The notes beneath the pieces are model-generated. The model ran no database searches. It was not told the origin of the DNA and saw only the letters and a program-made list of their open reading frames with translations. This document shows, piece by piece, positions 4,275 to 63,584 of a DNA stretch of 64,000 nt; within the stretch, counting starts at the first letter, position 1, and each line of letters begins with the position of its first letter. A program made the translations under genes and the position numbers. The stretch lies in assembly GCA_001314715.1 (NCBI GenBank), contig LJSV01000014.1:1-64000 (forward strand), in the 5' to 3' direction. The stretch comes from Rhodobacteraceae bacterium HLUCCA12 (lineage in GTDB: Bacteria; Pseudomonadota; Alphaproteobacteria; Rhodobacterales; Rhodobacteraceae).

Positions 4275-5357
4275 ATGCGATTTCATTTCAAGACGACATA
4301 CGACCAGGATATCCGACTCTTTCCCGATTGGTGGACCTTTGGCCTCTATGCCGCGCTTCTGGCGGTCATGCTGATCCTGCCGTGGCTGATCGACGGGTTC
4401 TTCCTGGGCGAAGTGACCAATGTCCTGATCTGGGCGGTCGCCGGGTTGGGGCTGATGCTGCTGACCGGGCAGACCGGTCAGGTCAGCCTGGGGCATTCGG
4501 CCTTCATGGCGCTGGGCTGCTATCTCTGCGTGATCCTGATGGAGGCGGGCGTGCCCTTCGTGGCGGCGTTCGTGCTGTGCGGAATCTTGACCGGCGTCCT
4601 TGGGGCGATCATCGCGCTTCCGGCCTTGAGGCTGCACGGCGTCTATCTGGCGATCGCGACTCTTGCGCTGGCCATTCTGGCCGACGACCTGATTGTCATC
4701 CTGACGCCCTGGACCGGCGGTGTCGCGGGCAAGTTCACACCAGAGATGACGATCCTGGGGTTCGAGATCAACCGATGGGCCAATCCCGCGTCTTGGTATT
4801 ACCTGGTGCTGATCGTCGCGGTGCTGGTTGCGCTGATCTATCGCAACCTGCTGCGCTCGCCGCTGGGTCGCGCCTTTGCGGCGATCCGCGACAGCGAGAT
4901 TTCGGCGCAGGCAATGGGCGTGGACGTCGCGCACACCAAGGCCGTGGCATTCGGCCTGTCCTGCGCCTTCACCGGGCTGGGTGGCGCGCTGATGGGCCTT
5001 TATGCCGGGGCGTTCAACAACGAGACCTTCAACTTCCTCCTTGCGATCCAGTTGCTGATGATGATCGTCATCGGTGGTCTGGGGTTCATCCACGGGGCGT
5101 TTCTGGGGGCGATCGTCATTGCCTTTCTGCCGCAGGCCCTGTCGATCCTCAGCGACCAGTTCGGCCGCGCCATGAGCATTCCGGGGCTGGAGATGGGCGT
5201 GTTCGGCATGATCCTGATCGCGTTCATCATCCTTGAGCCAATGGGGCTTTACGGGCGGTGGATGAAGATCCGCATCTGGCTTGAGCTGTTTCCGTTTGCC
5301 CGCCGCGACATGTTCCGCCGCCAGAAAAGCTATCTCAAGACGGAGCGGCTGAGATGA
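4275..5357 (+). CDS. livM: Branched-chain amino acid-type ABC transporter permease LivM
   Basis: This 360-residue inner-membrane permease has the LivM signature TGQTGQVSLGHSAFMALG at about residues 66-83 and the cytoplasmic coupling region SPLGRAFAAIRDSEISAQAMG at about 195-215. The N-terminus carries a short soluble leader before the first membrane helix at about residue 23. The gene starts 3 bases after livH and ends overlapping livG by ATGA, so the subunits are co-translated. It is the second half of the HAAT channel. Confidence 0.93.
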   Translation: MRFHFKTTYDQDIRLFPDWWTFGLYAALLAVMLILPWLIDGFFLGEVTNVLIWAVAGLGLMLLTGQTGQVSLGHSAFMALGCYLCVILMEAGVPFVAAFVLCGILTGVLGAIIALPALRLHGVYLAIATLALAILADDLIVILTPWTGGVAGKFTPEMTILGFEINRWANPASWYYLVLIVAVLVALIYRNLLRSPLGRAFAAIRDSEISAQAMGVDVAHTKAVAFGLSCAFTGLGGALMGLYAGAFNNETFNFLLAIQLLMMIVIGGLGFIHGAFLGAIVIAFLPQALSILSDQFGRAMSIPGLEMGVFGMILIAFIILEPMGLYGRWMKIRIWLELFPFARRDMFRRQKSYLKTERLR

Positions 5358-6154
5358 GCCTGCTGGAGCTGAAGAACGTCACCCTGAAGTTCGGCGGTGT
5401 CACCGCGGTCAACGAGTTGAGTCTGTCGGTCGAGGAGGGGCAGGTCTTTGCGCTGGTCGGTCCCAACGGCGCCGGCAAATCGACCGTGTTCAACATGATC
5501 TCGCGCTTCTATACCCCGGTGACCGGCTCGATCGTCTTTGACGGCCGCGACCTGCTGACACTGAAGCCGCACGAGGTTCCGCAACTGGGAATCGCGCGCA
5601 CCTTTCAGAACATCGAGCTGTTCGACCGTGCCACGGTCCTGCAAAACCTTCTGGTGGGCCGCCACCGGCTGCGCAAGACGACGCTTGTCGAAGAGATGTT
5701 TTTCGTCGGTCGCGCGCGTGCGCAGGAGCGCGCGCACCGGCACGCCGTCGAGGAGGTGATCGATTTCCTGGATCTGCAGCCATACCGCAACCAGATGATC
5801 GCGGGTCTTCCCTATGGCGTGCGCAAGGTCGTGGAACTGGCGCGGGCGCTGTCGACGCGGCCGCGCCTTTTGTTGCTGGATGAACCCGCCTCGGGCCTGT
5901 CGGTCGAGGAGACCCAGGACATGCGCTGGTGGATCGATGACATCCGCCGGCAGATGGGGATCACGGTGTTGATGGTCGAGCATGACATGGGACTGGTCAG
6001 CAATGTCTGCGACCGGGTGCTGGCGCTGGACGGGGGCCGAAAGCTGGCCGAGGGCACCCCGGCCGAAGTGCAGTCGCATCCTGCCGTGATCGAGGCCTAT
6101 CTGGGCACCGCTGCGGTTTCAAAGACCGCCAATGCCACCGGAGGCCGGGTATGA
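5354..6154 (+). CDS. livG: HAAT ABC transporter ATP-binding protein LivG
   Basis: This cytoplasmic ATPase of 266 residues has Walker A GPNGAGKST (about 36-44), a LivG-type loop ARTFQNIELF, a degenerate signature region PYGVRKVVELARAL and Walker B LLLDEPASGLS. The C-terminus has the typical LivG ending (AEGTPAEVQSHPAVIEAYLG) plus a short Thr/Ala-rich tail. It overlaps livM by four bases. After its stop comes a 160-base gap holding a two-hairpin repeat element before livF, an unusual break inside an otherwise tight operon. Confidence 0.93.
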   Translation: MSLLELKNVTLKFGGVTAVNELSLSVEEGQVFALVGPNGAGKSTVFNMISRFYTPVTGSIVFDGRDLLTLKPHEVPQLGIARTFQNIELFDRATVLQNLLVGRHRLRKTTLVEEMFFVGRARAQERAHRHAVEEVIDFLDLQPYRNQMIAGLPYGVRKVVELARALSTRPRLLLLDEPASGLSVEETQDMRWWIDDIRRQMGITVLMVEHDMGLVSNVCDRVLALDGGRKLAEGTPAEVQSHPAVIEAYLGTAAVSKTANATGGRV

Positions 6155-6199: not shown

Positions 6200-6262
6200 A
6201 GGGGGGCGCTGCCCCCCTCGGCCTGCGGCCTCACCCCCCGGCGTATTTTCGGCAAGATGAAG
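6200..6262 (+). repeat. Two-hairpin intergenic repeat, copy 1 (livG-livF gap)
   Basis: Hairpin 1 is AGGGGGGC / GCCCCCCT with a 3-base loop. Hairpin 2 is GGCC-TGC-GGCC. The conserved tail CCCCCCGGCGTATTTTCGGC runs on into AAGATGAAG. The same architecture occurs at 49947, 58144 and 62658, always on the plus strand just after a stop codon. This copy lies within an operon, 53 bases before livF, so it cannot be a complete terminator unless livF has its own promoter. The C-run of the tail could also pair with the G-run of hairpin 1, which would give two alternative folds. Confidence 0.75.
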
Positions 6263-6314: not shown

Positions 6315-7085
6315 ATGAGCGCGCTGCTGGAAGTTCGCAACCTCGAAACCTTTTACGGACCGATCATGGCGATCCGCGGCGTGAGCCTTGAGGTCCGCGA
6401 GGGCCAGGTGGTGACTGTGCTGGGCGCCAATGGCGCGGGCAAGACGACGCTGCTGAAGACGATCTCGGGCATCATGGACCCCGAGAAGGGCAAGATCCTG
6501 TTCGAGGGGCGCGAGATCCAGGGCAAGGAGCCCCACCAGATCGTGCGCCAGGGGATCGTGCAGGTGCCGGAAGGGCGCGAGGTGTTTCCCCTGCTGACGG
6601 TCGCGGAGAACCTGGCGCTTGGGGCCTATACGCGTTCGGATCGAAGCGAGATCGCGCGCGACCGCGATCTGGTGTTCGAGTATTTCCCGATCCTGGCCGA
6701 GCGGCGCGACCAGGAGGCCGGCACACTGTCCGGCGGGCAGCAGCAGATGCTGGCGATCGGGCGTGGCCTGATGCTGCGGCCCAAGATCATGCTGCTGGAT
6801 GAGCCCAGTCTGGGCCTGTCGCCGCTGTTGACGCAAGAGATATTCGCCATTCTCAGGCGGCTGAACAAGGATGTCGGCGTGACCATGATGCTGGTCGAGC
6901 AGAACGCCGCCGTGGCGCTGGACCTGGCCGATCATGGCTATGTGATGGAACTGGGTCGCATCGTCATGTCGGACCGTGCCGAGACGCTGGCGGCGTCCGA
7001 AGATATCCAGAACTTCTATCTTGGCCATGCCAATGAAGGCGCGCGCGGCGAGCGGCGCTGGAAAAAGAGGAAGACATGGCGGTGA
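6315..7085 (+). CDS. livF: HAAT ABC transporter ATP-binding protein LivF
   Basis: This 256-residue ATPase has Walker A GANGAGKTT, the LivF-typical VQVPEGREVFPLLTV, the ABC signature LSGGQQQMLAIGRGLM and Walker B IMLLDEPSLGLSP. It is the second nucleotide-binding subunit of the importer and would heterodimerise with LivG. The C-terminus (after NFYLGHANEG) is basic and ends in KKRKTWR. The gene is followed after 14 bases by the acyl-CoA ligase. Confidence 0.93.
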   Translation: MSALLEVRNLETFYGPIMAIRGVSLEVREGQVVTVLGANGAGKTTLLKTISGIMDPEKGKILFEGREIQGKEPHQIVRQGIVQVPEGREVFPLLTVAENLALGAYTRSDRSEIARDRDLVFEYFPILAERRDQEAGTLSGGQQQMLAIGRGLMLRPKIMLLDEPSLGLSPLLTQEIFAILRRLNKDVGVTMMLVEQNAAVALDLADHGYVMELGRIVMSDRAETLAASEDIQNFYLGHANEGARGERRWKKRKTWR

Positions 7086-22378: not shown

Positions 22379-22408
22379 GTCCGTGGGACACCCCTCCCCA
22401 ACGAGGGG
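22379..22408 (+). promoter_or_regulatory. Candidate structured serC leader (two hairpins before the RBS)
   Basis: Hairpin GTCC-GTG-GGAC is followed two bases later by hairpin CCCCTC-CCCAAC-GAGGGG. The serC ribosome site GGAAGGA starts about ten bases on. A conserved RNA called the serC motif is known upstream of serC in Alphaproteobacteria. Position and hairpin arrangement suggest this is a member, but I could not compare it with the consensus. Confidence 0.45.
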
Positions 22409-22428
22409 CGTTTATCTGGAAGGATAGC

Positions 22429-23583
22429 ATGACTGACGCCAAGACCCCGGCTACGCGGCCGGCCAATCCGCGTTTCTCTTCTGGCCCCTGTGCCAAGATC
22501 CCCGATTTCAGACTGGACATGCTTGCCGACGCACCCCTGGGCCGGTCGCATCGTGCTGCCATCGGCAAGGCCAAGCTGGCCGAGGCCATCGACCTGACGC
22601 GCACTGTGTTGGGCGTACCGGCCGACTACCGCATCGGCATCGTCCCCGGCTCGGACACCGGCGCCGTCGAGATGGCGATGTGGTCGCTTCTGGGCGCGCG
22701 CGGGGTCGAGATGCTGGCATGGGAAAGCTTTGGCGAGGGCTGGGTGACGGATGCCGTCAAACAGCTCAAGCTCGATGCCACGGTCCGCAAGGCGCCCTAT
22801 GGGCAGATCGTGGATTTCGCCGAGGTCGACTTCGACAAGGACGTGGTCTTTACCTGGAACGGTACGACCTCGGGCGTTCGTGTGCCTGATGGCGCCGCGA
22901 TCCCTGCCGATCGCAGCGGGCTGACGATCTGCGACGCCACATCGGCCGCCTTTGCCATGGACCTGCCCTGGGACAAGTTGGATGTCGTGACCTTCAGCTG
23001 GCAGAAGGTTCTGGGCGGCGAGGGTGCGCATGGCGTCCTGATCCTGTCGCCGCGCGCGGTCGAAAGGCTGGAAAGCCACACGCCGGCCTGGCCGCTGCCC
23101 AAGATTTTCCGCCTGACCAAGGGCGGCAAGCTAAACGAGGGCATCTTCAAGGGCGAGACGATCAACACGCCCTCGATGCTGGCTGTCGAGGATTATCTGG
23201 TCGCGCTGAAATGGGCACAATCCATCGGCGGCTTGCCCGCGATGGTTGCCCGCGCCGATGCCAATGCGCAGGCGGTATGGGATTTCGTGGCCCGGCACGA
23301 CTGGATCGCCAATCTGGCCGAGGATGCGGCTCTGGCCTCGACCACCTCGGTCTGCCTGAAGTTCACCGACCCGCGCATCGCGGACGGCGCGGCTTTTGCC
23401 AGAGGCGTTGCCAAACGGCTTGAGGCCGAGGGCGTCGCCCTGGATATCGGTGCCTATCGCGATGCACCGCCGGGTCTGCGGATCTGGTGCGGATCGACGG
23501 TGGAAACCGCCGATGTTCAGGCGCTGCTGCCCTGGATCGAATGGGCCTATCACGCTGAAATCGCCGCGCAGAAAGCGGCCTGA
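22429..23583 (+). CDS. serC: Phosphoserine aminotransferase
   Basis: This 384-residue class-V-fold PLP enzyme converts 3-phosphohydroxypyruvate to phosphoserine with glutamate. The N-terminal region [15 protein letters not shown], the substrate loop [14 protein letters not shown] and the PLP-lysine segment [17 protein letters not shown] match the longer alphaproteobacterial SerC type. The ATG at 22429 follows GGAAGGATAGC; the track ORF start lies far upstream inside serB and is not real. It is followed after 63 bases by serA in the same operon. Confidence 0.95.
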
Positions 23584-46713: not shown

Positions 46714-47028
46714 GGCGCCCTGTTGCACGGCTTGGGTGGATCGGGCAAGAGGTGTTGAGCCAACGCGCCCTGCGACGAGATTGGCCGCAGCGCCTCGCAC
46801 CGGTCATGTGCAACCCGCCCGACGCCCGCCATTCACGCGGCTTTTGCTTGACTCCAAGCGCGCGCTGCCATATCGCCCGGTCAATTCCCCGGAGGCTTGT
46901 CGCTTCCGGTCCCATCGCTTTTGCGGGGATCGCCATCCGTCAGCGCGTTGCGCCCACGGGTGCCACTTTGCATTGGCGGGTTCGCACGGGTCGTATTCGC
47001 ACGGGCCACGGTCACAAAGGACGAGCGC
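46714..47028. other. Divergent promoter region between trhO and ffh
   Basis: This 315-base gap contains the start regions of both genes. A good sigma-70-like promoter pair for ffh is listed separately. I see no small gene or structured RNA, and in particular no 4.5S RNA gene next to ffh. Confidence 0.5.
46848..46876 (+). promoter_or_regulatory. Predicted promoter of the ffh-rpmE operon
   Basis: TTGACT (46848-46853) and TATCGC (46871-46876) are 17 bases apart. The -35 box is immediately followed by C, so it also contains a GANTC site (GACTC). The site is about 150 bases ahead of the ffh ATG, which would give a long leader. Confidence 0.5.
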
Positions 47029-49584: not shown

Positions 49585-49938
49585 ATGGCTACCAAAATCC
49601 GTCTCGCCCGCGGGGGCTCGAAAAAGCGCCCGTTCTATTCGATCGTCATCTCGGACAGCCGCATGCCGCGCGACGGCCGGTTCCTGGAAAAGGTCGGCAC
49701 CTATAACCCGCTGTTGGCCAAGGATCACGAGGAGCGCGTAAAAATGGATGTCGAGCGGGTCCAGTTCTGGCTCGACAAGGGCGCCCAGCCCACCGACCGC
49801 ATCGCGCGCTTCCTTGAGGTCGCGGGCCTGCGCACGAAGGCCGAGCGGAGCAACCCCAAGAAGGCCCAACCCGGCAAGAAGGCCGTCGAGCGCGCCAAGG
49901 AAAAGGCCGACAAGGCCGAGGCCGGCGCCGAAGCGTGA
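49585..49938 (+). CDS. rpsP: 30S ribosomal protein S16
   Basis: This 117-residue protein has the S16 core ([41 protein letters not shown]). A Lys/Ala/Glu-rich C-terminal extension ([25 protein letters not shown]) follows, common in alphaproteobacteria. An AAAGGAGAA site precedes it. A copy of the two-hairpin repeat fills the gap to rimM. Confidence 0.97.
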
Positions 49939-49946
49939 GGCCGGGC

Positions 49947-50018
49947 GAGGGGGGCTGTCTGCCCCCCTCTTTGGCTTCGCCAAATTCACCCCCCGAGCGT
50001 ATTTCCAGCAAGATGAAG
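49947..50018 (+). repeat. Two-hairpin intergenic repeat, copy 2 (rpsP-rimM gap)
   Basis: Hairpin 1 is GAGGGGGGC / GCCCCCCTC with a 5-base loop. Hairpin 2 is TTTGGC-TTC-GCCAAA. The tail is TTCACCCCCCGAGCGTATTT continuing CCAGCAAGATGAAG. Hairpin 2 shares no arm sequence with copies 1 and 4 yet remains perfectly paired. The element ends eight bases before the rimM ATG, so its fold can affect rimM translation. Confidence 0.8.
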
Positions 50019-50026
50019 AGGGCGGA

Positions 50027-50533
50027 ATGGGCAAGGACAGGGTTTGCGTGGGGGCAGTCGCCGGGGCGTTCGGCGTGCGTGGCGATGTGCGCCTGAAAAG
50101 CTTTTGCGCCGAGCCCGAGGCGATCGCGGCCTATGCGCCGCTTCAGACCGAGGACGGCAGCCGCAGCTTTGACGTTACCGTGTTGGGGGCGGTTGCCAAC
50201 GGGCTGTCTGTCCGGCTGTCGGGCGTGAATACCCGCGAAGAGGCCGAGGCCCTGCGCGGCACTAGGCTTTACGCCGATCGCAGCCGCCTGCCATCATTGC
50301 CCGATGACGAATTCTATCATGCCGACCTGATCGGGCTGGAGGTTCTGGATACCGGCGGCACGGTTCTGGGAACGGTGACGGCGGTGCTTGATCACGGTGC
50401 CGGGGATCTGCTGGAGATCCAGCGCAAGGGCGCGCAGAGCGTGTTGCTGCCCTTCACCCGCGCGTCGGTGCCGACCGTCGATCTGGCGGCTGGCCGGATC
50501 ATCGCCGATCCGCCCGACGGGTTGCTGGAATGA
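50027..50533 (+). CDS. rimM: 16S rRNA processing protein RimM
   Basis: This 30S maturation factor of 168 residues has the N-terminal RimM domain ([29 protein letters not shown]) and the C-terminal PRC-barrel with [18 protein letters not shown] and [20 protein letters not shown]. It binds S19/16S rRNA during assembly. The start at 50027 follows GAGGGCGGA; the longer track ORF runs back through rpsP. It overlaps the next gene by ATGA. Confidence 0.95.
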
Positions 50534-58136: not shown

Positions 58137-58143
58137 ACCGCAC

Positions 58144-58217
58144 GGGGCGGTGGTGCGACGACCTGGCGTTGCGCCCGCCCCGGCTGCGGGATCGTGCGTA
58201 TTTTTGGCAAGATGAAG
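58144..58217 (+). repeat. Two-hairpin intergenic repeat, copy 3 (after glcB, diverged)
   Basis: Hairpin 1 arms are GGGGCGG (58144) and CCGCCCC (58175) with a 24-base loop. Hairpin 2 is CCCG-GCTG-CGGG. The tail GTGCGTATTTTTGGCAAGATGAAG is kept, although the preceding C-run is lost. It starts eight bases after glcB. The remaining 180 bases to the next gene hold only a 21-codon ORF that I do not consider a gene. Confidence 0.65.
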
Positions 58218-59587: not shown

Positions 59588-62500
59588 ATGGCCACTTACC
59601 ACAGCCCACAGCGCCAGCCCCTTCTCGATCAGCGCTTGCAGCAGGCCCTGAGCCAGCGCGGCAAGGAATTGCTGGGGATCGGGCTGATCTGTGCCGGTGC
59701 GGTGCTGGCGCTCATGCTGGGATCGTATTCGCCGCAGGATCCGTCATGGATGGCCACCAGCGACGGCCCGGTGCACAACGCGCTGGGGCGCGTGGGTGCC
59801 GCGATCGCGGCACCGGCGATGATCATCATGGGACAGGCGGGCTGGGGCGTCGTGGTCGCGCTGGTCGCCTGGGGTCTGCGGCTGATGACGCATCGCGGCG
59901 AAGAGAACATCCTGGGTCGATCGGTCTTTGTGCCGATCGCGGTCGCGCTCAGCGCGGTATGGCTGGCAACGCTGGTGCCCGGTGACGGCTGGGCGCTGGA
60001 TTTCGGGCTGGGCGGGATGTTCGGGGATACGGTTCTGGGCGCGGTCCTGACAGCGTTGCCCCTGACCTCGACCGCCGGGCTGAACATGCTGACCCTGCTC
60101 AGCTTTCTGACGATGCTTGCGCTTTGGTCCTATGTGCTGGGCACGTCCTGGCATGAGTTGCGCAGCTTTGGCCGGTTCCTGATCAACGGACTGATCCTGA
60201 GCTACATGGGTGTTCTGGCCATGCTGGGCGTTGGCGCGCGGGGCATGGGCGGGATGGCCCGGCGCGCACATGGGCGTTGGCAGAACCAGCGCCACCAGCG
60301 CGCCGAGGAACCCGCACCGAAGCGCGCGGCACCGGCCCCGCAAGGCAGCGTGCATGAGGGACAGGCAGCGGCGCCGGCGTATCAGCCGCAGGCTTTCGCC
60401 CCCCATATTCCCGCCCCGCATGCCGAGCCGCCGCTGTCGCGCGGGGGCGCGCGCGTCTTGCGCGCCACGCCTGCGCGCGCCGGTCAGGCCGCACCGCAGC
60501 AACCGGCGCCGGCCGGACCGCCGCCGGCATTCCACCATCAGGTTCAATCGGGGGCCATCGTGGCCGATCATCGCCCTCCCGCCCCGGATGCCGCCGACAC
60601 AACCTCGCGGCCCGGCCTGCTGGCGCGTGTTCTTGGGCTGCGCAATGGCGACAATCCGGACGCGGCCGCGCGATCGCAGGCAGGTCATGATGCCGGTTCG
60701 GACGCCACCGGCGACGAGCGCATTCGCAACCGGATCAGCGACCTGATACGCGCCCGTCAGCGGCAGGTGCCCACCTTGCGGATCGACTCCGCCCGACCGC
60801 AGCTTGGCCTGCCGCCAGGCACGGGCACAGCGCCGATCCCCGCGTCACTGGCGGCCACACGTTCCGCCCTGGCCGGCGCGGGTGAACCAACCGCCCCGCA
60901 GTCCGCCGCGCCGCGCCCGGCCCCTGCTGTTTCGGCGGCACCCGCCGCGCCGTGGTTCGAACCCGCCGAGGACGACGTTCTCGATGACGCCATGGCGACC
61001 GATGCACAGACGGTGCGCCCGGCGAACGTGCTCAACCGCCGCGTGGTTCAGCCCGCGGCGCGCAGGATGCCCACCCCGTCGCGCCGAGCCCAGGCCGAGG
61101 CCGAGCCGCGGCTTGCGTTTGACCAGGCGCAGGCCGTCTATGAACTGCCGCCGTTGTCCTTGCTGACCGATCCCACAAACGTGGAGCGTTACACCCTCTC
61201 GGACGATGCGCTGGAAGAAAACGCGCGGATGCTGGAATCGGTGCTCGACGACTACGGCGTGCGCGGTGAGATCGTCTCGGTCAGGCCCGGCCCGGTGGTC
61301 ACGATGTATGAACTGGAACCGGCACCCGGCCTCAAGGCCAGCCGGGTGATCGGGCTGGCCGATGACATCGCGCGGTCGATGTCGGCGCTGTCGGCGCGGG
61401 TCTCCACGGTTCCGGGCCGGTCGGTCATCGGGATCGAACTGCCGAATGCGCGCCGTGAAAAGGTGGTGCTGCGCGAGATCCTGGGGGCGCGTGATTTTGG
61501 CGATACGCAGATGCGCCTGCCCCTGGCGCTGGGCAAGGATATCGGCGGCGAGGCGGTTGTGGCCAACCTGGCCAAGATGCCGCACCTGTTGATCGCCGGG
61601 ACCACCGGGTCGGGCAAATCCGTGGCGATCAACACCATGATCCTGTCGCTGCTTTACAAGATGACACCGCAGGAATGCCGGTTGATCATGATTGATCCCA
61701 AGATGCTGGAACTGAGCGTCTATGACGGCATCCCGCATCTGCTGTCGCCGGTGGTGACCGATCCCAAGAAGGCCGTCGTCGCCCTGAAATGGGTCGTCGG
61801 CGAGATGGAGGAGCGGTATCGCAAGATGTCCAAGATGGGGGTTCGCAACATCGACGGCTACAATGGCCGGGTGCGCGAGGCGCTGTCGAAAGGCGAGATG
61901 TTCAAGCGCACGGTGCAGACGGGCTTTGACGACGAGACCGGCGACCCGGTGTTCGAGACCGAGGAATTCGCGCCCGAGCTTCTGCCCTTCATCGTGGTGA
62001 TCGTCGATGAGATGGCCGATCTGATGATGGTCGCGGGCAAGGAGATCGAAGCCTGCATCCAGCGCCTGGCGCAAATGGCGCGGGCGTCGGGGATTCACCT
62101 GATCATGGCCACCCAGCGCCCCTCGGTCGATGTCATCACCGGCACGATCAAGGCAAACTTCCCGACCCGGATCAGTTTCCAGGTCACCTCCAAGATCGAC
62201 AGCCGCACGATCCTGGGCGAACAGGGGGCCGAGCAATTGCTGGGCATGGGCGATATGCTGTACATGGCCGGCGGCGCGCGGATCACGCGCATCCACGGCC
62301 CGTTCGTTTCGGACGAAGAGGTCGAAGAGGTGGTCAACCACCTAAAGTCCTTTGGCCCGCCGGCCTATCAATCCGGGGTTCTGGACGGCCCGGACAACGA
62401 CCGCGAGGCCGATATTGATGCGGTTCTCGGGCTGGGCGACTCGGGTGGTGAGGATGCGCTCTATGATCAGGCGGTGGCGATCGTGGCGCGCGACCGCAAG

Positions 62501-62644
62501 TGTTCGACCAGCTATATCCAGCGCAAGCTGGGGATCGGCTACAACAAGGCCGCGCGGCTGGTCGAGCAGATGGAAGCCGAAGGGGTTGTCAGCGGCGCAA
62601 ACCACGTCGGCAAGCGCGAGGTGCTGGTTCCCGAAAGTCACTGA
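59588..62644 (+). CDS. ftsK: DNA translocase FtsK
   Basis: This 1018-residue division-linked DNA pump has four N-terminal membrane helices within about residues 25-220. A Pro/Ala/Arg-rich linker of roughly 300 residues follows, then the motor domain with Walker [17 protein letters not shown] at about 670, [16 protein letters not shown] and [13 protein letters not shown]. The C-terminal gamma winged helix ([38 protein letters not shown]) reads polar DNA sequences. It clears the terminus region during septation. The neighbouring aminotransferase probably shares its mRNA. Confidence 0.97.
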
Positions 62645-62657
62645 CGGCACGGGAGAG

Positions 62658-62733
62658 CGAGGGGGGGCAGGGGGGCCAGCCCCCCCTCGCCGCTGCGCGG
62701 CTCACCCCCCGGCGTATTTTCGGCAAGATGAAG
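62658..62733 (+). repeat. Two-hairpin intergenic repeat, copy 4 (after ftsK)
   Basis: Hairpin 1 is an 11-bp perfect stem, CGAGGGGGGGC with GCCCCCCCTCG. Hairpin 2 is GCCGC-TGC-GCGGC. The tail CACCCCCCGGCGTATTTTCG continues GCAAGATGAAG, identical to copy 1. It lies 14 bases after ftsK and 20 bases before the convergent PuuD-like gene end. Here it may act as an ftsK terminator. Confidence 0.8.
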
Positions 62734-62753: not shown

Positions 62754-63515
62754 TCAGGCCTTGCCGGCAGCCCAGCCGCGCACGGCCTCGCCAAATGCGG
62801 TGAAGAGCGGCCGCGAGACCGGGTCGTTCGCGGCATTCCATTCCGGGTGCCACTGAACGGCAAGGGCGAAGCCGGGCGCGTCCTTGACATGGATCGCCTC
62901 GGGTGTGCCGTCGGGCGCGTGGCCCTCGATGACGATCCGCTTGCCGGGGGACTTGATCCCTTGGCCATGCAGCGTGTTGGTCATCACCTCTTCGGCGCCG
63001 AGCAGGCGATGAAAGACCCCGCCCACGACAAACCGGACCGGGTGGCGCAGGGCGAACTTTTCCTCCAGCGTGCCGTCTGGCGGCATGCGGTGGTTCATGC
63101 GTCCCGGCAGGTCCCGGATCTCGGGGTGCAGGGTGCCACCCATGGCGACGTTGACCTCCTGAAAGCCGCGACATACGCCCAGAAACGGCTGGCCGCGTTC
63201 GATGCAGGCCCGAACCAGCGGCAAGGAGATGGCGTCGCGTCCCCGATCGAAGTCGCCATGCGCCGGGGTCGGTTCCTCGCCGTATTCGCACGGATGCACG
63301 TTGGGGCGCCCGCCCGTGAGCAGGATCCCGTCGCACACCTCCAGCAGCTCGCCGACCGAGACATAGCGGGGGTCGGCCGGGATCAGCAAAGGCAGCGCAC
63401 CCGCCACTTCGGACACGGCCTGGCTGTTCATCGTGCCGCCCGCGTGGACGGAATATTGATCGTTGATCAGATGGCTATTGCCGATGATTCCGACAACAGG
63501 GCGTGTGCGCGACAT
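62754..63515 (-). CDS. Class I glutamine amidotransferase-like gamma-glutamyl hydrolase (PuuD-type)
   Basis: This 253-residue peptidase C26-family protein has the nucleophile Cys in FLGVCRGFQEVNVAMGG, the oxyanion/Gly region ILLTGGRPNVHP and the catalytic His/Glu in AVQWHPEWN. PuuD hydrolyses gamma-glutamyl-GABA in putrescine breakdown; related enzymes act on other gamma-glutamyl compounds. No other puu genes are in view. The start at 63515 has a GAGGA site. Confidence 0.85.
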   Translation of the reverse strand: MSRTRPVVGIIGNSHLINDQYSVHAGGTMNSQAVSEVAGALPLLIPADPRYVSVGELLEVCDGILLTGGRPNVHPCEYGEEPTPAHGDFDRGRDAISLPLVRACIERGQPFLGVCRGFQEVNVAMGGTLHPEIRDLPGRMNHRMPPDGTLEEKFALRHPVRFVVGGVFHRLLGAEEVMTNTLHGQGIKSPGKRIVIEGHAPDGTPEAIHVKDAPGFALAVQWHPEWNAANDPVSRPLFTAFGEAVRGWAAGKA

Positions 63516-63584
63516 GTCGTTCCTCGATGGCGTTTCGCCGACAGGCACTATCTAGCCCGCTGTCCGCCCAAGGTGAAGGCCCCC

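Follow-up and report, generated by a model that had tools for sequence, protein, structure and literature searches.

A stretch of 64,000 nucleotides from Rhodobacteraceae bacterium HLUCCA12, hereafter the window, carries a short structured sequence between genes at several places. What is this element, and does it act as RNA, as DNA or as a mobile unit? Tails within three mismatches of GTATTTTCGGCAAGATGAAG occur four times in the window, all on the plus strand and starting at 6243, 49999, 58198 and 62714 (GTATTTTCGGCAAGATGAAG or a variant), and not once in 100 shuffles. The full plan, comprising a G-run hairpin, a second hairpin, a second C-run and the tail, is present in three copies (6201-6262, 49949-50018 and 62670-62733; Table 1). 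The initial annotation had placed four copies, at 6200, 49947, 58144 and 62658, on one plan. This stands for the first, second and fourth; at 58144 only the tail is shared, and the CCCG/CGGG pairing read there as hairpin 2 is not an equivalent second hairpin, the stem at that place being a different one, GGGGCGG..CCGCCCC. The equal length of the three runs, the mirror third arm and the complementarity of the bases behind it to loop 1 had been missed. No Rfam family scores above gathering at the four window copies, with sub-threshold chance matches at two; elsewhere in the window, Rfam matches a serC leader and an ffh sRNA (22381-22432, 46919-46970), which are ordinary for alphaproteobacteria.

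Table 1. Features of the four window copies and their flanking genes (P, purine arm; P′, its reverse complement; Q, third arm).
Copy	Feature	Positions	Strand
1	P, purine arm GGGGGG	6201-6206	+
1	Loop CGCTG, whose third base (C) pairs with the G directly behind Q	6207-6211	+
1	P′, CCCCCC, Watson-Crick partner of P	6212-6217	+
1	Hairpin 2, GGCC-TGC-GGCC	6220-6230	+
1	Q, third arm CCCCCC, equal in length to the other two arms	6234-6239	+
1	GGC and tail GTATTTTCGGCAAGATGAAG	6240-6262	+
1	Flanks: livG-like gene (5354-6154), livF-like gene (6315-7085)		
2	Hairpin 1, GGGGGG-CTGTCTG-CCCCCC	49949-49967	+
2	Hairpin 2, TTTGGC-TTC-GCCAAA	49970-49984	+
2	Q CCCCCC, then GAGC, whose GA is reverse-complementary to TC in the loop	49989-49998	+
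2	Tail GTATTTCCAGCAAGATGAAG	49999-50018	+
2	Flanks: rpsP (49585-49938), rimM (50027-50533)		
3	Tail (58198-58217) after unrelated hairpin; triplex plan absent	58141-58217	+
3	Flanks: malate synthase G gene, aminotransferase gene		
4	Hairpin 1, GGGGGG-CCAG-CCCCCCC	62670-62686	+
4	Hairpin 2, GCCGC-TGC-GCGGC	62689-62701	+
4	Q CCCCCC and GGC	62705-62713	+
4	Tail	62714-62733	+
4	Flanks, convergent pair: ftsK (59588-62644, +), Peptidase_C26 gene (62754-63548, -)		

With up to two mismatches allowed and the middle two bases left free, the genome of the window (3.73 Mb, 52 contigs) holds 79 tails, 40 forward and 39 reverse, and the reversed control none. A second tail type, ATATTTnnRGACAGAAAATG, occurs at 21 places in the same genome. 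The tail is also present in 211 of the 296 genomes sampled from the order, among relatives that belong to Pararhodobacter, Ruegeria, Leisingera and other genera, which bears out the earlier suspicion of a repeat dispersed in Rhodobacteraceae. A class-wide sample, which contained just three close relatives and is informative on spread beyond the family, matched the structural pattern in the window's own genome and, outside it, a single time, in another family. Phage records gave no match to the element, although the tail occurs on ten IMG/VR contigs. Literature matches to the tail sequence, among the matches listed, came from eukaryotic gene studies, with primers as the likely source.

Several partial or unusual forms were also seen. 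Plasmids of Acidovorax and Pseudomonas (records H16-H18) carry the hairpin part only (about 33 bases), without the tail. Conversely, an exact tail without hairpin lies on the minus strand (L081, 3503-3522; G000:C36:37502-37521) inside a predicted gene of 974 aa, likely a tRNA synthetase as judged by eye. In other relatives (loci L143, L123 and L153) the A-rich tail stands behind a much shorter unit, GCCTCCGGCGGG-[AG]TATTTnnGGAAAGATGAA, with some close tandem or inverted pairs; this unit is probably a reduced relative of the element. For the second-type tail copies at G000:C30:24404-24460 and C8:32117-32173, two face each other about 17 bases apart, as a PIT-like inverted pair.

The three-arm plan and its lock

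Comparison of 76 copies from the window's genome and 104 from relatives gives a common plan: P, a loop, P′, a spacer x, Q, the lock, [CAG][GA]TATTT and the tail. In the genus of the window, x consists of a second hairpin between TC and TTCA, while in other relatives it is often only GGA, GCA or TGAAAA, such that P′ and Q are spaced by hairpin 2 or by 3-8 bases. Q is the parallel complement of P and the mirror of P′. The three runs are equal in length in 133 of 169 copies, compared with a mean of 67 and a maximum of 89 after Q is shuffled.

The arms are short, at 4-8 bases, and most are pure G/C runs, in which mirror and direct repeats are indistinguishable. Arms that contain A, anchored on RTATTT, read as P/P′/Q: AGGAGGG/CCCTCCT/TCCTCCC, GGGAGGA/TCCTCCC/CCCTCCT, GAGGGGG/CCCCCTC/CTCCCCC and GGGGGAGG/CCTCCCCC/CCCCCTCC. 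Each A of P stands opposite a T of Q in the parsed loci; one further copy (L272), from a separate set, has A at that place. At one orthologous site in G272 and G310, all three arms have changed together, in register, AGGAGGG/CCCTCCT/TCCTCCC standing against AGGGGG/CCCCCT/TCCCCC. A test independent of the tail, across 276 genomes, set GGGAGG-N-CCTCCC-N-CCCTCC (mirror) against a pattern of equal composition with CCTCCC at the end (direct). Among the matches listed, which are related by descent and so count non-independent events, 99 places fit the mirror pattern; 34 of these have the symmetrical arm GGGAGGG and hence fit the direct pattern as well. The remaining 65 places are mirror-only, against a single direct-only one. 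RTATTT follows 38 of the 49 mirror cores retrieved. Counts that allow A at the arm bottom carry no information here, since the stem is preceded by A and followed by T in any case.

These places bear on the earlier proposal that the second C-run competes for the G-run of hairpin 1 in a two-state fold. Engagement of the G-run by the second C-run is retained; strand competition is rejected, as it needs a direct repeat of P′. Since Q mirrors P′ in the arms that contain A, it would be a third strand rather than a competitor. Mirror purine/pyrimidine arms are the requirement of an intrastrand triplex under the Hoogsteen code, and we know of no template-switch process that yields them.

The one to three bases that follow Q and precede RTATTT are complementary to loop 1. 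A CGCTG loop is followed by G, CGTTG by A, xxTCx by GA, TTTCACA by GTG, TTTTCCA by GGA, TTTTGCA by GCA and CTGCCG by GC. The rule is obeyed in 44 of 55 distinct loop/spacer pairs (shuffle maximum 34 over all pairs and 40 within loop length) and in 34 of 34 members of the separate A-containing set. In five-base loops, C at the third position is matched by G in 37 cases and T by A in 31, with five exceptions. Together with P:P′, this loop lock is a predicted pseudoknot topology that would hold Q beside the stem. Another pairing, suggested by the minus-strand fold, between TGAA of the tail and TTCA before Q, was rejected: other tail types lack TGAA yet keep TTCA. At the level of sequence comparison the three-arm code and the loop complementarity are established, and we hold the existence of the family, its mirror third arm and its loop rule with high confidence.

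Pairing, placement and the acting molecule

In 13 aligned copies, hairpin 2 pairs in 100% of cells and three pairs change on both sides, with a covariation score of 0.245 vs 0.058 in shuffled alignments (0/500). The arms thus differ with pairing kept, as the initial annotation had it. That annotation attributed this to selection on RNA structure, of which selection on pairing survives and a plus-strand RNA does not. The 76 distinct x sequences contain 442 hairpin-2 pairs, 435 of them Watson-Crick, three C-A and none G-U, and the compensatory changes therefore occur without the G-U intermediates expected of RNA acting from one strand. Between codirectional genes, 23 copies are sense and 20 antisense. 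For copy 1, the plus-strand RNA fold has a weak z-score against dinucleotide shuffles (0.25), a point that weighs against the triplex reading preferred below.

Copies are placed non-randomly at gene ends, as had been claimed: 32 of the 43 between codirectional genes are closer to a stop than to a start codon (medians 13 and 60 bases), and 23 of 78 placed copies fall in convergent gaps vs 132 of 815 gaps. Genes were called for these counts by a codon-based method of our own, which makes errors and overlooked the gene that converges on window copy 4. Some copies lie inside operon-like runs (livG-livF, rpsP-rimM, bchX-bchY). The further claim, that copies lie on the plus strand after a stop codon, is correct for all four in the window and fails genome-wide, where forward and reverse tails are equally common; the sense-after-stop rule is an accident of the window, and copies adjoin gene 3′ ends in both orientations.

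Proximity to stop codons and presence within operon-like runs would both suit a 3′-end RNA element, in which a locked pyrimidine-motif RNA triplex on the plus strand, or the hairpins on either strand, block 3′-5′ exonucleases and stabilise the upstream mRNA. Intercistronic hairpins and REPs are able to stabilise upstream mRNA in this way. An RNA-capable pyrimidine motif also predicts A in P opposite T in Q, an arrangement no less compatible with that motif (on the plus strand, perhaps as RNA) than with the purine motif. The missing G-U pairs and the equal use of both orientations argue against such an element, and RNA would require five to six consecutive protonated C; the purine motif, for its part, does not form in RNA (PMC4666352). 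We regard this as the strongest rival and, on balance, as unlikely. The absence of G-U pairs and the orientation-free, intra-operon placement therefore favour a DNA-level repeat over a plus-strand RNA or a terminator, and DNA is the somewhat likelier acting molecule.

Tails, turnover and the proposed mechanism

The tail comprises 20 bases, RTATTTnn and then a lineage-specific tag. In the 76 own copies, positions 7-8 are free, with at least 13 of the 16 dinucleotides, while positions 1-5, 10-14, 16, 18 and 19 are invariant and the rest except the last nearly so, a contrast too large to stem from the selection of this sample by tail similarity. Recent copying alone would not keep 18 tail positions while freeing two. 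Fixed letters around two free ones thus point to a trans-acting recogniser, and a factor that reads the tail is probable. Relatives carry other tails, including GCCAAGATGAAG, GGCAGAATGAAG, GGCATAAAGTTG, AGAGCAAAGAGG and more. At syntenic sites the hairpin is common and the tail differs by genome-specific type; the tail is GGATTAAAGATG in G302 and GGCGTAAAGATG in G189 at orthologous sites, and at one site in G023 and G020 the hairpin is identical and the tail type swapped. Genome-specific tails at syntenic sites suggest a coevolving recogniser, gene conversion among copies, or both.

Copy number ranges from 1 to 142 within one genus, and at some sites only one of two syntenic genomes has the element. 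At one shared intergenic site (L245/L248, in G023 and G020), the element is oppositely oriented in the two genomes. Copy-number swings, presence and absence, reversal at a shared site and the coexistence of several tail types in one genome are what a purely selfish ssDNA mobile element would show, of the REP/RAYT or IS200/IS605-like kind, with a transposase reading fold and tail. The Y1 transposase PF01797 is nonetheless missing from the window's genome and from 133 of 150 sampled genomes (present in 17), for which reason a RAYT/Y1 transposase was rejected as the trans factor. The genes between close element pairs are housekeeping-like, with no candidate enzyme among those examined, and a purely selfish element appears improbable. 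Poorest of all is a bidirectional transcription terminator with RTATTT as U-tract, which placement at gene 3′ ends and enrichment in convergent gaps would suit and which we consider very improbable, given that the spacer, Q and the lock separate RTATTT from hairpin 1, the other strand has no U-tract, copies lie inside apparent operons, E. coli PIT elements are inactive as terminators (PMC4666352), and the mirror code and the tail beyond RTATTT would stay unexplained.

In the reading we prefer, which as a whole we give about an even chance, Rhodobacteraceae carry a family of dispersed DNA repeats that are non-coding, form a locked intrastrand triplex, have a tail read by a trans factor and behave like REP/PIT sequences. 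P, loop and P′ would form a hairpin on one strand, and Q would fold back alongside as the third strand under the Hoogsteen code, locked by pairing of the one to three bases after Q with the loop. The plus (tail) strand would adopt a class III pyrimidine-motif fold and the minus strand a class I purine-motif fold. The latter is judged the likeliest folded form because no protonation is needed, and minus-strand purine-motif DNA is in our view the likelier active form, arising when replication or transcription separates the strands. A sequence-specific trans-acting factor would read the tail next to it, and each genome has more than one tail type. The elements behave like REP and PIT sequences, orientation-free, beside gene 3′ ends, and gained, lost and homogenised, and we infer that copies spread or convert one another through ssDNA processing or template switching. 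That the triplex forms in cells and matters there is, in our estimate, evenly balanced.

Third-strand selection read from comparative sequence, through mirror arms, base-triple change and the loop lock, is akin to covariation evidence for helices. Few natural systems may be as well suited to asking if triple-stranded DNA or RNA matters in living bacteria, and the relevance of triplexes can be put to the test in photosynthetic and denitrifying bacteria that are easy to grow. Tail types that are lineage-specific yet common to a genome's copies point to a putative recognition system.

Comparison with known systems

Bacterial repeats with the potential for an intrastrand triplex were recognised two decades ago, and the PIT/BoxC/TMECO repeats were reportedly described as such by Hoyne and Maher. 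Like these E. coli repeats (Holder et al. 2015, PMC4666352), the Rhodobacteraceae element has on one strand a homopurine arm, a pyrimidine arm that is its Watson-Crick partner and a Hoogsteen arm; under its mirror rule these three could fold into an intrastrand triplex. Both are intergenic and dispersed without strand bias, with some inverted pairs and a copy number that is uneven between relatives. TMECO is of class II (pyrimidine-purine-third strand), with 9-base stems and the consensus CCCTCNCCC, whereas the present element lacks this order and consensus. It is of class III on the tail strand (purine-pyrimidine-third arm) and class I on the other, with arms of 4-8 bases and a loop lock; the turn often contains a second hairpin, and the 20-base tail is conserved and specific to the lineage. 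In vivo DMS footprinting of a related E. coli motif showed no triplex (PMC4666352). The same paper does not mention Rhodobacter, Paracoccus or Roseobacter in its text; its ITxF database was searched with stems of 6-15 and loops of 1-6, and would therefore include some members with a short x.

Intrinsic terminators share a GC hairpin near stop codons with a T-rich stretch close by. They differ in having a U-tract directly after the hairpin, in the sense orientation; here the spacing is wrong, the orientation free and some copies lie within operons. With REP/BIME sequences the element shares extragenic palindromic units, dispersed in many copies near gene ends, several classes per genome and lineage-specific sequence. 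Unlike REP/BIME systems with RAYT, the genome of the window has no RAYT, and we know of no REP counterpart for the third arm and the tail. It is a tentative idea, and one we hold to be less likely than not, that these repeats form a new class, with a three-stranded fold selected in vivo and genome-specific tails read by coevolving cognate factors. The element resembles PIT/BoxC and REP, yet by its arm order and the absence of RAYT it belongs to neither.
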